A stretch of 32,009 bases of DNA, taken from an uncultured Phycisphaerales bacterium (GTDB lineage Bacteria; Planctomycetota; Phycisphaerae; UBA1845; Fen-1342). Shown here piece after piece: positions 9,311 to 14,443 of the stretch. The notes below the pieces were generated by a model that was given only the letters and a program-made list of their open reading frames with translations, was not told the DNA's origin and made no database searches. Each line of letters begins with the position of its first letter. Positions within the stretch are counted from its first letter, which is position 1. Both the position numbers and the translations under genes were made by a program. The stretch spans positions 1 to 32,009 of the forward strand of contig CAIWOY010000243.1 in NCBI GenBank assembly GCA_903914415.1. The letters run 5' to 3'.

Positions 9311-10357
9311 ATGCCCCCCACGCGTCCCGAAGTTTCGGTCGTCGTGCCGGTCTTCCAGGAGGAGGCCAGCATCCCGGCCGTCATTCCGCAGTTCGTGCGG
9401 ACGCTGGCTGGCCAACGCCGCAGCTTCGAGCTGATCGTCGTGAATGACGGGAGCCGCGATCGGACCGGGGCGCTGCTGGACGAGCTGACCGCCGGCGAGC
9501 CGCGCCTCCGCGTGATCCACCTGGCCCGCAATTACGGCCAAACCGCGGCGCTAATGGCCGGTTTCTGGGCGGCCCGCGCGCCGATCATCGTCCCGCTCGA
9601 CGGCGACGGCCAGAACCCGCCCGAGGAAATCGGCCGCCTGTGCGACGTCCTCGAAGAAGGCCGCTACGACGTCGTCAGCGGCTGGCGCAAGAACCGCCAG
9701 GACCCCTGGCTGCGCACCCAGGTCTCCCGCGCCGCCAACTGGCTCATCGGCCGCATCACCGGCGTCAAGCTGCACGATTACGGCTGCACATTGAAGGCGT
9801 ACCGCACGAGCGTCATCCGCGACTCGCGCCTCTACGGCGAGATGCACCGCTTCATCCCCGTGTACACGTCGATGCACGGCGCCCGCATCTGCGAGGTCGT
9901 CGTCCAACACAAGCCGCGCACTGCCGGCCAGAGTAAGTACGGATACGGCCGCATCTTCAAGGTCGCCGTCGACCTCATTCTCGTGCGGATGCTCCAGAAG
10001 TACCGCACGAAGCCGATGCACTTCTTCGGGAAGATCACGCAGTGGTCGTGGCTCGCGGCGGCGCTGTGCATGGTCTTCGGCATCGGGCGGGCGATCTACG
10101 CGCAGGACGCGTGGAAGGCGTTCTGGGGCAAAGCGCCGCTCGTCGGCGTCATCTTCTTCCTGCTCGGCTGCTTCTCGATCATGCTGGGGCTCGTGGCGGA
10201 ACTGGCGATGCGGGCCGCGTTCGAGCACAACGCCGGCCGGTACTGGGATGAAGCCCGCCGCGTGAACTTCGGCCCCGGCGGCTCGGAATGGGAGCCGCGC
10301 AGCGCCGACGCCGAGGCGTTCGCGTCCCGCACGATGGAAGACGTGGTGCGGCACTAG
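9311..10357 (+). CDS. GT2 glycosyltransferase with C-terminal membrane anchor
   Basis: A 348-residue family 2 glycosyltransferase of the polyprenyl-phosphate type (DPM1/ArnC/GtrB-like). The GT-A domain shows VSVVVPVFQEE (8-18), VVNDGSRDRT (43-52), the nucleotide-binding PLDGDGQNPPEEI (95-107) and DYGCTLKAYR. Two hydrophobic segments at about 237-258 and 272-297 match the two-helix C-terminal anchor of this class. Such enzymes load a sugar onto undecaprenyl phosphate at the inner membrane for later transfer to a glycan or protein. GAGG lies 9 bases before the ATG. The gene stands alone between purE and the insertion-sequence island. The sugar cannot be predicted. Confidence 0.92.
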   Translation: MPPTRPEVSVVVPVFQEEASIPAVIPQFVRTLAGQRRSFELIVVNDGSRDRTGALLDELTAGEPRLRVIHLARNYGQTAALMAGFWAARAPIIVPLDGDGQNPPEEIGRLCDVLEEGRYDVVSGWRKNRQDPWLRTQVSRAANWLIGRITGVKLHDYGCTLKAYRTSVIRDSRLYGEMHRFIPVYTSMHGARICEVVVQHKPRTAGQSKYGYGRIFKVAVDLILVRMLQKYRTKPMHFFGKITQWSWLAAALCMVFGIGRAIYAQDAWKAFWGKAPLVGVIFFLLGCFSIMLGLVAELAMRAAFEHNAGRYWDEARRVNFGPGGSEWEPRSADAEAFASRTMEDVVRH

Positions 10358-10394: not shown

Positions 10395-10467
10395 GACTTT
10401 CAATGACCCGCGCCTACCGTCGGCGGTATTAGGAGTGCGTGGTTCGGGCCACCGCATCCGTTGTTAC

Positions 10468-10486
10468 TAGCCCAACCTTCGCAGAT
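10468..10486 (+). mobile_element. Left terminal inverted repeat of the IS1634-like island
   Basis: TAGCCCAACCTTCGCAGAT is the exact reverse complement of 12820-12838. The two copies face inward and mark the outer ends of the transposase remnants. No obvious target-site duplication flanks them. Confidence 0.8.
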
Positions 10487-10613
10487 TTGAAAAATGCGAC
10501 GGCCCCGAACCGGGCTGGCGCTATCGCCGCGGCGGATTTGGCGCCGCGCACGGCGGTAGTGCAGACCTACCCCGTTGCTTTGCGGTGGCGGGTTCTGGTA
10601 TCTGAAGCACAGC

Positions 10614-10870
10614 ATGTTTCTGCGCTGCCACGCCCGGAAGAAGAACGGCCAGCTCCAGCGCTACGGGAGCGTGGTCGAGTCACGCCGCGTGGCCGGCGGC
10701 GCTGCGGTGCAGCGGCCGGTGCCGTACCTACGGCGAGATCAACGACCGCCAGGCGGCGGCCATGGCGCAAGGCCATGGTGGTCTTTGACGAGCCCCAGCA
10801 ACGCTACGAGCCATCTGCGCTGTTCCCGGCGGACCAGTCGTTGCCGCCTGATCAGGTCAACGCGCGGCCG
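10614..10870 (+). pseudogene. IS1634-family transposase, 5' fragment (frameshifted)
   Basis: The ATG at 10614 opens MFLRCHARKKNGQ and continues to VESRRVAGGAAVQRPVPYL, which I recognise as the N-terminus of IS1634-family transposases. The expected GEINDRQAA then continues in another frame, so one extra base is present near 10732. A second extra base (the A in GGCCATGG near 10764) is absent from the sister copy at 12436, after which AWRKAMVVFDEPQQRYEP reads on. Similarity ends near 10870 at VNAR. The catalytic region is missing, so this is a dead fragment. It begins 146 bases inside the left inverted repeat, as expected for an IS leader. Confidence 0.75.
10754..10870 (+). repeat. Long direct repeat, left copy
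   Basis: This roughly 115-bp segment matches 12436-12551 at about 90 percent by eye, in the same orientation. It is the shared N-terminal part of the two transposase fragments. Recombination between the copies would delete the amidotransferase gene. Confidence 0.8.
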
Positions 10871-10946
10871 CCATATCCCCAGGGTCGGCCCAACACCCTC
10901 CTCCCGCGAAGGTCCTGTATTTTAGCGCCGCTCCGGCCACGGCAAA

Positions 10947-10995
10947 GCGGGGTGACCGGTGGGACTCGGTCGAGAGTCCGAACCGGTATCTCCGC
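10947..10995. other. 49-nt imperfect hairpin upstream of the amidotransferase
   Basis: Three stacked helices can form: 10947-10952 with 10990-10995, ACCGGT (10955-10960) with ACCGGT (10982-10987), and GGACTC (10962-10967) with GAGTCC (10974-10979) closed by a GGTCGA loop. There is no T-run, so it is not a standard terminator. It is not a tRNA. It may be a structured RNA, a repeat or an IS remnant. Confidence 0.5.
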
Positions 10996-11056
10996 CCCAT
11001 CCAGACCAATCGAGCCCGTGAATGCTGCCGAAACTCCACCCAGATGCCCTTTGTAG

Positions 11057-11065
11057 TGCTATAAT
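11057..11065 (+). promoter_or_regulatory. Extended -10 promoter for the amidotransferase gene
   Basis: TGC followed by a perfect TATAAT forms an extended -10 element; no -35 box is evident. Transcription would start near 11072, about 68 bases before the ATG at 11140. Confidence 0.5.
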
Positions 11066-11139
11066 GGCGACAGGGAGAGCCGGCGCCGGGACGGCAGATC
11101 AACCGGGGCGCGGATGCGCCCCAGATGGCGAGGTGTGCA

Positions 11140-12240
11140 ATGCATGTCACTGCTTCGGACGCACCCGATCCAGGGGAACTACGGCGCTGCTCGCGCTGTC
11201 TGTTGCCGGAAACGTATCCGCAAATCGCGTTCGACGAGAATGATGTTTGCAGCGTGTGCCGCGTGCATCGGCCCCAACACGAAGAGTTGCTAGGTGAAGA
11301 GGCTCTCCGGCGGCTGGTCGATTTGCATCGTAGCCGTTCCGGGAAGTACGACTGTCTGACCGCCCTGAGTGGCGGGCGCGACAGCACCTACGCGCTCTAT
11401 TACGCGGTTCGGAAGCTGGGGCTGAAGACGCTGGCGTTCACGGTTGACCAGGGCTTCATACCGGCAGAGACGTGGGAGAACATCGCGCAGGCGACGCGCA
11501 TCCTGGGCGTTGAGCACGTGGTGATCAAGCACCGCCTGTCGCAGAAGAGCCTCGCGCCGATGCTCCGCGCCTGGGTGAAGCGGCCGTCCGCGTCGATGGT
11601 CAGCTTCATGTGCCTCGGGTGCCGGCTGGGCATGCGCAAGGTCTTTCTCCAGGTCGCGCGGCAGTACGCCCTCCCGCTGTGCATCTCCGGTGCCGGCGAA
11701 CCCGAGGGGTCCTTCGCCACCGCGTTTTTCTCGACGCACTCTAGCCGCCTGCGCCGAATGCTGGCCCTGTTCGGGGGCATCGGTGTGGAGCTGCTTCGCA
11801 ACCCGCGTTATCTGCTCCACCCGGCGTTGCCCTGGCGGATGGTGGTCGAGTTTCTTTATGAATACCCGCCGGCCGGGTTCATCCGGCGCCTCGTGTCGCC
11901 CCGCTGGGAGTACGTGCCGCTCTTCCGCTACATTCCGTACGACGAGAACGAGATCATGCGCGTCCTCACCGAGGAGCTGAAGTGGCAGAAGTACCGCTAC
12001 AGTGCGGCGGCATGGCGGGCCGACTGCAAGATCAGCCTGCTCAAGAACGCGCTGTACCAGCAGACGCTGGGGTTCACCAAGCATGACGAGCTGATCAGCG
12101 GCCTGATCCGGCGCGGCCTGATCTCGCGGGAGGCGGGGCTCGCCCGCCTGGCCCACGACAACCAGATTCCTGAGCAGTTCCTGGATGAGTTCTTTGCGGA
12201 GTTGGGCGTCCGGCGCGAGCACCGGGGGCCGGCTGGCTAA
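11140..12240 (+). CDS. N-acetyl sugar amidotransferase-like ATP-PPase
   Basis: A 366-residue protein resembling the WbpG/PseA/LegG N-acetyl-sugar amidotransferases. Cys17, Cys20, Cys37 and Cys40 form two CxxC pairs (CSRCLLPETYP and VCSVC), and SGGRDS (77-82) is the PP-loop that activates a substrate with ATP. A later FMCLGC pair is also family-like. Relatives use ammonia, usually delivered by HisH/HisF-like partners, to make an acetamidino group on a surface sugar. No partner or sugar-pathway gene is present, so the substrate is unknown. The ATG at 11140 is chosen over 11125 because GAGG lies 6 bases upstream. The gene is enclosed by IS1634-like fragments and may have been captured or transferred with them. 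Confidence 0.82.
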   Translation: MHVTASDAPDPGELRRCSRCLLPETYPQIAFDENDVCSVCRVHRPQHEELLGEEALRRLVDLHRSRSGKYDCLTALSGGRDSTYALYYAVRKLGLKTLAFTVDQGFIPAETWENIAQATRILGVEHVVIKHRLSQKSLAPMLRAWVKRPSASMVSFMCLGCRLGMRKVFLQVARQYALPLCISGAGEPEGSFATAFFSTHSSRLRRMLALFGGIGVELLRNPRYLLHPALPWRMVVEFLYEYPPAGFIRRLVSPRWEYVPLFRYIPYDENEIMRVLTEELKWQKYRYSAAAWRADCKISLLKNALYQQTLGFTKHDELISGLIRRGLISREAGLARLAHDNQIPEQFLDEFFAELGVRREHRGPAG

Positions 12241-12435
12241 CGTAGTTTCTCGCAATTCCTGCATCAGTGGAAAAGGGGGGAGCACGAACCTCCGGGCCGT
12301 GCGCGGCGTCTTGTGTACGGGGCGGAGCCCCATGCTCCCCTGGGGTCCCCGCTGAGAGGGGGAATGGTAGAAACCGACCGGCCGGTGGCCTGCGCTACGG
12401 GGGCGTGGGGTTCCGGACACATTCCGGTGCGGTGA
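12241..12435. other. Gap between the amidotransferase gene and the right IS fragment
   Basis: No gene is evident. The gap includes GGGGCGGAGCCCC (12328-12340), a short hairpin, and on the minus strand a GTAGCGCAGGCCACCGGCC segment (near 12380-12398) starting with the GTAGCG motif seen in the nuo gaps. Confidence 0.45.
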
Positions 12436-12551
12436 GGCGGCCTGGCGCAAGGCCATGGCGGTCTTTGACGAGCACCAGCAACGCTACGAGCCATTCGCGC
12501 TGTTCCCGGCGGACCGGCCGTTGCCGCCTGACCAGGTCAACGCGCGGGCGG
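12436..12551 (+). repeat. Long direct repeat, right copy
   Basis: Partner of 10754-10870, differing by scattered substitutions and lacking the extra A that shifts the left copy. After this segment the two copies retain only weak resemblance. Confidence 0.8.
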
Positions 12552-12727
12552 CGATCCAGAGGGTGGACGTGCACCTCCCGACCACCGCCGGCCGGCTGCT
12601 GATCCGGCCGCGTTACACGGAGCCGGAGCCCGCGCCACGCATGATCCTAAACAAGCTGAATCTGGCGCTGCCCGCTCAGCCGCCGTCGCGCATCCGCCGC
12701 AGGCAGGCCAAACTACCCGCCCTCTGA
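12436..12727 (+). pseudogene. IS1634-family transposase, internally deleted 3' fragment
   Basis: The frame reads AWRKAMAVFDEHQQRYEPFA through LPPDQVNAR, the same N-terminal part as the left fragment. It then jumps straight to VDVHLPTTAGRLLIRPRYTEP and LNLALPAQPPSRI, which is the C-terminus of IS1634-family transposases. The several hundred residues carrying the catalytic residues are missing, so this is an internally deleted, inactive copy. Its stop is at 12725-12727, about 90 bases before the right inverted repeat. An ATG at 12455 could still start a 90-residue product. Confidence 0.75.
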
Positions 12728-12819
12728 CCGCTTCCGCCCCAGACCATCCCCGTTTTTGTAGTGCAGACCTTGGGGCCGAAACCGCGTTCCTGCCCCCGCC
12801 AACGCGGTTTACCCGCACG

Positions 12820-12838
12820 ATCTGCGAAGGTTGGGCTA
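12820..12838 (-). mobile_element. Right terminal inverted repeat of the IS1634-like island
   Basis: This is the exact reverse complement of 10468-10486. Its outermost bases CTA (12836-12838) are the nuoN stop codon TAG on the minus strand, so the element ends inside the reading frame of nuoN. Confidence 0.8.
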
Positions 12839-14443
12839 AGGGGAAGCGAAGGGCGGGTCTACAGCGGACGCGACGGGGCTTTCCGTTCGGGCGGCGGTGG
12901 CGCGGGGCTCGGATAGCTCGCGCGTGGCGTGCTGGCCAGCCCGCATAAGCCCGCTGGGATAGAAAGTGAAGATCAGGATCAGAAAGCCGCAGAGCAGGGC
13001 GCCGATGCTCTGCGCCTCGCGCGGCGCGGCGTAAGCGGGCTGGTCGTTCTCGTAGAGCAGCACGGCGGCGATCACGCGCAGGTAGTAGGCCGCCGCCAGG
13101 GCGGAATTCAGGACGGCGATGATGACGAGGACGATGAGCCAGGTGTCGCCGGTGAGGCGGGACGCGGTGAGGGCGCTGCCAAAGAGGGCGAATTTGCCCC
13201 AGAAGCCCGGCGTCGGGGGCAGGCCCATGAGCGTGAACATCGCCAGCGCGAGCAGCAAGGCGAGCCCGGGTTCGCGGCGGAGCAGTCCGGCCACGTCGCG
13301 CAGCGTTTCGCAGGGTCCGCCACGCGTCCGCAGCAGGCCGAGGACGGCAAAAGCGCCGAGGTTGGCGAGACCGTAGATGACGATGTAGAAGAGCACGGCG
13401 GCGGGGCCGTTGCCGAGGATGCTGACGCCGTCGGTCGCGAGGGCTTTGCCCGCCAGCGGGCCGGCGAGGACGCCCACGAGCATGTAGCCGGCGTGGGCGA
13501 CGCCGGAATAGGCCAGCAGGCGCTTGATGTTGGTCTGGCGGAGAGCGAGGACGTTGCCGACGGTCATGCTGGCGACGGCGAGCAGCCAGAGGAGCCAGTA
13601 GACGGCGCGGTTCTCCGTGTCCCAGAAGCCGGTGAGGGCGATGATCTTGAAGATGGCGATGAGGCCGGCGAGCTTGGGCACGAAACCGAGCAGGCCGGCG
13701 ACGGGGCTGGAGGCGCCCTGGTACACGTCGGCGACGTAGAAGTGCAGCGGGACGGCGGCGATCTTGAAGAGCAGTCCGCCGAGCGACAGGACGATGCCGA
13801 CCATCGCCAGGCCGCCCTGGAGCGAGTTGGGGTCGCGGAGGGCGAGGACCACTGCCCGCGTGGTTGCGGCCAGCGAGGCGGTGCCCGAAACGCCGTAGAG
13901 GAAGCTGAGGCCGTAGGCGAAGACGGCGGCGGAGAGGGCGCCGAGGTAGAAGTACTTCGTGCCGGCCTCGAGCGCGGCGGCGTTGGAGCGGCTGAGCACG
14001 ACAAGGACGTAGGTGGGGATGCTGACCAGTTCAACCGCGAGGAAGAGCAGCCAGAGGTTGTCCGCGGGGGCGACCAGCAGCAGGCCGGTCAGCGCGAAGA
14101 GCAGCAGCGCAAGGAATTCGCCGCGCTCTTCTTCGCGGCCGGCGGACCAGTTGACGAGGACCAGCAACACGCCGAGCTCGAGGGCGGCAATGCGGACAAA
14201 GGTGGCGAGGGAGCCGTAGAAGAGGCCGCTGCCGGCGGCGGGCGGACGAGTGGCGCGGCCCGTGATGAGCACCTCAAAGAGGACGACAACGACGGCCGTG
14301 ACGAGGGCGAGCAAGGTTACCCAGGGGGCGAGGCGGCGGCGGTGGGCGGTGGTCGCAACGCCCAGCAGGAGCACCGCGCAGCCAGCGACGAGCAGGATCA
14401 GCTCGGGGAGGAGGGCGCTGAGGGAGATCGGGTGCGGCGGCAT
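12836..14443 (-). CDS. nuoN: NADH-quinone oxidoreductase subunit N
   Basis: A 535-residue multi-pass antiporter-like subunit of the complex I membrane arm. Family landmarks include FLAVELVSIPTYVLV with the membrane Glu, LFKIAAVPLHFYVADVYQGA, RLLAYSGVAHAGYMLVG and FTLMGLPPTPGFWGKFALF. It carries one of the proton pathways. The start at 14443 is two bases after the nuoM stop (TGACCATG), so translation is probably coupled. It is the last gene of the operon. The stop codon lies in the outermost bases of an IS inverted repeat, and the last 40 or so residues are a polar tail without family character, so the original C-terminus may have been replaced or cut. Confidence 0.97.
   Translation of the reverse strand: MPPHPISLSALLPELILLVAGCAVLLLGVATTAHRRRLAPWVTLLALVTAVVVVLFEVLITGRATRPPAAGSGLFYGSLATFVRIAALELGVLLVLVNWSAGREEERGEFLALLLFALTGLLLVAPADNLWLLFLAVELVSIPTYVLVVLSRSNAAALEAGTKYFYLGALSAAVFAYGLSFLYGVSGTASLAATTRAVVLALRDPNSLQGGLAMVGIVLSLGGLLFKIAAVPLHFYVADVYQGASSPVAGLLGFVPKLAGLIAIFKIIALTGFWDTENRAVYWLLWLLAVASMTVGNVLALRQTNIKRLLAYSGVAHAGYMLVGVLAGPLAGKALATDGVSILGNGPAAVLFYIVIYGLANLGAFAVLGLLRTRGGPCETLRDVAGLLRREPGLALLLALAMFTLMGLPPTPGFWGKFALFGSALTASRLTGDTWLIVLVIIAVLNSALAAAYYLRVIAAVLLYENDQPAYAAPREAQSIGALLCGFLILIFTFYPSGLMRAGQHATRELSEPRATAARTESPVASAVDPPFASP

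Follow-up and report, generated by a model that had tools for sequence, protein, structure and literature searches.

In a Phycisphaerae-type bacterium, two dead fragments of one IS enclose an intact but rare gene that belongs to the N-acetyl sugar amidotransferase (NASAT/WbuX) family, and the resulting block looks like ordinary mobile-DNA debris beside an acquired gene, not like a working transposon. Our preferred reading, held with about even confidence, is that non-autonomous, internally deleted debris of the IS1634 family came to lie on both sides of this acquired orphan gene at a point of rearrangement. The window, by which we mean the whole stretch of DNA analyzed, is the entire contig C243 (32,009 bp), one of 464 contigs in a 4.74-Mb draft assembly, and its relevant features are collected in Table 1. 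As the evidence stands, the case mainly records a rearrangement breakpoint and the gain of a gene. It is also a further example, from Planctomycetota, of an acquired surface-sugar gene flanked by non-autonomous IS debris, a kind of structure with sparse annotation in that phylum, and it directs attention to a group of IS1634-family elements in Phycisphaerae that includes deletion derivatives.

Table 1. Features of the block and its flanks (positions in the window).
Feature	Position	Strand	Remarks
Left flank, family 2 glycosyltransferase gene	9311..10357	+	Pfam PF00535, 8.2e-30
Left IS fragment: left end and transposase N-terminus, two frameshifts	10467..10871	+	comparison with L075, L074, L145
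Left terminal inverted repeat	10468..10486	+	target-like CTAG (10467-10470) before it, partly overlapping
Direct repeat, left copy	10763..10871	+	91-93% to right copy
Leader segment, repeated elsewhere	10920..11154	+	96% to end of C271; includes first codons of the gene
NASAT/WbuX family gene, intact	11140..12240	+	TIGR03573, 4.7e-42
GC-rich palindromic repeats, dispersed in host genome	about 12277..12370	.	two kinds, about 26 other places
Right IS fragment: internally deleted, without left end, C-terminus and right end kept	about 12371..12838	+	
Direct repeat, right copy	12443..12551	+	
Right terminal inverted repeat	12820..12838	-	with next base reads GTTGGG/CTAA
Right flank, nuoN	12836..14443	-	94% to G001 C169

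The outer ends of the block carry inverted repeats that are 100% complementary over 19 nt, as an earlier note on this DNA had pointed out. No other 19-bp repeats in the window pair perfectly at a distance of up to 3 kb (chance expectation about 0.0015), and even when up to 2 mismatches are allowed, the motif does not recur anywhere in the 4.74-Mb assembly. Both ends read CCCAACCT, and their outer CCCAACYT agrees with the IS1634 terminal consensus C-----YT (PMC2266710). At the block borders, CTAG/CCCAAC on the left and GTTGGG/CTAA on the right share a YTAR-type motif with one mismatch, and when we looked for target duplications, as the earlier note had proposed, none of 5-6 bp was present there, leaving CTAG and CTAA alone. 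Two-ended relatives (L130 and L145) likewise have no such duplication, so that its lack is uninformative for decayed copies, and since every two-ended copy is one base off at the YTAR motif, target duplication does not separate the models discussed below. Its absence therefore weighs only mildly against insertion of the block as one unit.

That both fragments derive from one IS and that both are dead is well supported. In the left fragment, the transposase N-terminus is read at 10614-10733 and continues in a different frame at 10763-10864, and the two frameshifts that had been noticed there correspond to two single-base insertions relative to other copies (TACCT[A]CGGCGAG and GCGGCC[A]TGGCG). 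This fragment is 85% identical to a left end in genome G022 (L075), 75% to a deletion copy in the same genome (L074), and 72% to a near-full copy elsewhere (L145). The right fragment was likewise correctly described as an internally deleted copy that keeps the C-terminus: Its N-terminal segment is fused in frame to the C-terminus, with about 1.4 kb missing relative to the 2.05-kb L145. The left copy may or may not share this internal deletion: Its tail matches neither deletion arm. Each fragment lacks its inner end, neither holds an intact transposase reading, and no transposase of this IS and no other end of it was found in the assembly. The segment shared in direct orientation on both sides of the gene, previously estimated at about 115 bp, spans 109 bp with 9 mismatches and a longest identical run of 20; its core aligns with a score of 196, where shuffled sequences reach 50 at most, and a weak similarity extends further upstream (about 10642-10718 versus 12375-12434; 0/500 shuffles).

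The IS of both fragments is assigned to the IS1634 family by way of relatives in other Planctomycetota. A search with the N-terminal transposase reading retrieved copies from several genomes of the order, and the contigs with related sequence come from Phycisphaerae/Planctomycetota metagenome assemblies. Genome G022 has a long copy with much of the transposase (L073), the left end mentioned above, and the deletion copy L074, which has both ends around a deleted middle in 768 bp. The proposed search for an intact relative came as far as L145 (JADFMZ010000280.1, 926-2970), an almost complete copy (about 2,045 bp) to which the window fragments align and whose transposase is itself in two frames; it matches the IS1634 model NF033559.2 with an E value of 1.2e-75 and 255 bits (cut-off 100). 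The end motif is present in 14 of the 114 genomes of the order and in 22 contigs, nearly all of Planctomycetota, from a collection of 84,980 genomes, mostly as single ends and many times at contig edges. Paired ends outside the window belong to deletion copies (stand-alone derivatives being L074 and L106), to one near-full IS copy, or to a hairpin (L134). No passenger gene besides that of the window was found between two such ends in the 114 genomes of the order or in the larger collection, so that the proposed search for the same inverted repeats around other genes came up empty across about 85,000 genomes, and the inverted-repeat pattern was not found in viral contigs either. In the L134 hairpin (about 1770-1819, genome G020), two IS1634-family ends abut with nothing between them and form a near-perfect 50-bp structure.

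The block thus resembles IS1634-family elements and their internally deleted, MITE-like derivatives in the transposase model of its relatives and in its ends, with a full copy at about 2.05 kb, and differs from IS1634 elements in holding fragments only, without a transposase and with YTAR in place of a 5-6-bp duplication.

The enclosed ORF has 366 codons, or 371 if an alternative upstream ATG at 11125 is used, and its match to TIGR03573 spans positions 3-336 of the 344 in the profile with 144.6 bits, below the curated cut-off of 203.2. It shares with the N-acetyl sugar amidotransferases WbpG, WbuX, and LpNASAT this near full-length profile match, a PP-loop of the SGGXDS type (SGGRDS, at residue 77), and four cysteines in two CXXC pairs (CSRC and CSVC), and it also matches the solved LpNASAT structure (PDB 8wex, 4.3e-12). 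It departs from them in its score below the cut-off, in the aspartate two residues before the third cysteine (DVC where the tetracysteine motif CXXCXn[GN]XCXXC has [GN]XC; PMC10607449), and in being an orphan outside any sugar cluster. Its GC content of 65% is slightly under the 67-70% of its neighbors. In a comparison for presence or absence, as suggested by the earlier note, the gene has no match in the same-genus genome G001, and a relative with the gene at this place and no IS, which would have spoken against the proposed capture, was not seen. The closest relative that we found is 56% identical and lies in a different context in G039, a genome from another family of the order, and 391 further genomes of the phylum yielded no match at 1e-60. 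Missing from G001 and rare in the phylum, the gene fits acquisition, and we regard it as well supported that it was gained and is not ancestral at this place. Carriage by plasmids or phages was considered and rejected, with only relatives of at most about 30% identity among the plasmid records listed and no relatives in phage or viral contigs.

The 235 bp of the leader segment are not IS sequence. On C271, homology to this segment sets in at the stop codon of a reading frame. Over its final 90 residues, this frame aligns to the end of the integron-integrase model TIGR02249 (1.3e-33); the rest is without a match, so that the frame is a remnant. The homology runs into the first amidotransferase codons and stops where C271 ends; judging from this overlap, C271 may continue into a second copy of the amidotransferase gene, none of which is present in the assembly. 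At the C271 locus itself (L008, 1-918, minus strand), the HTFRHS of the remnant reads HTFWHS, and the segment, here of 236 bp, follows directly after. A short integron-integrase tail YTHDLNRGPAGARSPVDRL lies beside a probable tRNA region on C145 (L192, about 1439-1513), so the genome may harbor several integron-like loci in a decayed state. An integron gene cassette was considered and rejected, given that no attC pair (RYYYAAC...GTTRRRY) with a spacing of 40-200 nt occurs in 10860-12400, and a tRNA, tmRNA, or riboswitch ahead of the gene was dismissed after ARAGORN and Rfam searches came back empty. A consensus scan for a sigma-70 promoter in the leader was empty as well, though TATAAT is found at 11061-11066.

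On its left the block adjoins a glycosyltransferase gene and on its right nuoN, with which a leftward-reading nuo cluster ends. The G001 ortholog of the glycosyltransferase gene (93% identical) has different genes after it, on a contig that extends 61 kb beyond it, while homology of nuoN to G001 starts at window position 12836, the outer edge of the IS. The 2 flanking genes are on separate contigs in G001 (C81 versus C169), G014 (C13 versus C15), G011 (C151 versus C57), and G016 (C7 versus C8), with nuoN at least 40 kb from the contig ends in the latter 3 genomes, and they are far apart in every relative with contigs of sufficient length. That they adjoin in the window accordingly reflects either a rearrangement specific to this lineage or an error of assembly. 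The block thus marks a breakpoint of rearrangement, and its arrival as a single transposon is not supported. On the nuoN side, G001 cannot serve as a clean empty site, since the contig there stops 156 bp further on inside another dispersed repeat. A dispersed repeat of at least 250 bp that contains ACACCAAAACACATTCCGATTACGGACCC is found in both genomes, at the contig ends of L009 (C347), L194 (C3), and L089 (G001), and in G001 it directly adjoins nuoN. The G001 neighbor of the glycosyltransferase gene is located on C311 in the genome studied here, beside another mobile-element end, where the end of a reading frame and a terminal repeat look, by eye, like those of an IS630-type transposase.

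In the history that we prefer, the outer ends would go back to two separate insertions, next to the glycosyltransferase gene and next to nuoN, which recombination or an IS-associated rearrangement would have joined, trapping between the IS ends a gene segment that was probably tied earlier to a decayed integron-like locus. The gene would now be part of the chromosome like any other, its expression presumably driven by its own leader, and for it to move, a transposase would have to be provided in trans, of which the assembly revealed no source. Perfect outer repeats combined with 7-9% internal divergence speak against two insertions insofar as they are also expected of one two-ended unit. Such a unit, a decayed composite transposon or mobile insertion cassette in which an IS1634-family transposase moved 10467-12838 as a whole and brought the gene before one flank was rearranged, is in our estimate unlikely, though the leading alternative. 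It would explain the perfect 19-bp repeats, the lack of a transposase inside, and the absence of the gene from G001, and long or intact IS relatives such as L145 and L073 could have acted in trans; however, there is neither a second copy of the unit nor another gene between such ends, each end shows only YTAR with one mismatch and no 5-6-bp duplication, the flanks are not adjacent in relatives, and dispersed repeats of the host lie inside. Slightly less probable again is that a resident deletion-derivative IS was split by a single crossover with a gene-bearing segment or circle holding a piece of the same IS. The outer parts do sum to one deletion derivative in which both ends are perfect, comparable to the 768-bp copy in G022, the inner ends are absent on both sides, and the direct repeat sits exactly at the overlap, but 9 differences in 109 positions between the repeat copies exclude a recent duplication of one sequence, the tail of the left fragment fits neither deletion arm, and the flanks are again apart in relatives. 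Were such an event reversed, one element of about 690 bp would result. Least probable, and in our view improbable, is a chimeric contig that falsely joins the glycosyltransferase and nuo regions through repeats: The draft state of the assembly with its 464 contigs, the distance of the flanks in relatives, and the repeats in between would allow it, while the junction has no long exact repeat (the two fragments share no identical run above 20 bp), the IS has no other trace in the assembly, and the gene region is unique sequence of more than 1 kb.

That the block inserted whole, as a composite transposon or a mobile insertion cassette, is not supported: No second copy, empty site, or duplication was seen. 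Of the earlier suggestion of a composite transposon or of capture by an IS derivative, the parts that stand are the origin from one IS, the death of both fragments, and a gene that is not ancestral here, whereas a second copy, another passenger, a 5-6-bp duplication, and neighboring flanks in relatives did not materialize. The block shares with composite transposons two direct fragments of one IS around a gene and differs in that neither fragment is a complete IS, no working transposase with ends is present, the flanks are non-contiguous in relatives, and there is no duplication. With mobile insertion cassettes such as MIC231 of Bacillus cereus or the qnrD cassette (PMC3913671), it has in common matching IS ends, one passenger, and no transposase gene; it differs in the direct IS fragments inside its ends, in belonging to IS1634 instead of IS4/IS231, and in lacking a target duplication or second site (none being found in the assembly or the genome collections searched). 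We see it as rather doubtful, more so than either transposition as a unit or the crossover, that a surface-sugar amidotransferase gene from an integron-like locus of the same genome, with a leader copied from behind the intI remnant, was placed between MITE-like IS1634-derivative ends to form a mobile insertion cassette that related Phycisphaerae transposases could move; if movement were demonstrated, the IS1634 family would join those with known mobile insertion cassettes. Removal of the gene by recombination across the direct repeat, also raised earlier, is possible in principle given the 20-bp longest identity, and no product of it was seen; what remained after such a loss would be an element of about 690 bp that has both ends and is similar to the 768-bp copy in G022.

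Overall, the inner part of the block is made up not of IS sequence but of host-type DNA and of a leader that has a repeat history of its own. Downstream of the gene, window positions 12315-12347 hold the dispersed motif ACGGGCCGGAGGCCCATGCTCCCC, which has more than 20 copies in the assembly (L149-L171) and occurs both by itself in intergenic places and within a palindromic MITE of about 150 bp. This MITE, with the ends CTAGTGTAGTGGCTCA...TGAGCCACTACACTAG, is present in at least 6 copies (L004, L005, L154, L159, L164, and L168) on C424, C357, C147, C270, C463, and C378, and by its look has an IS630/Tc1-like TA target.
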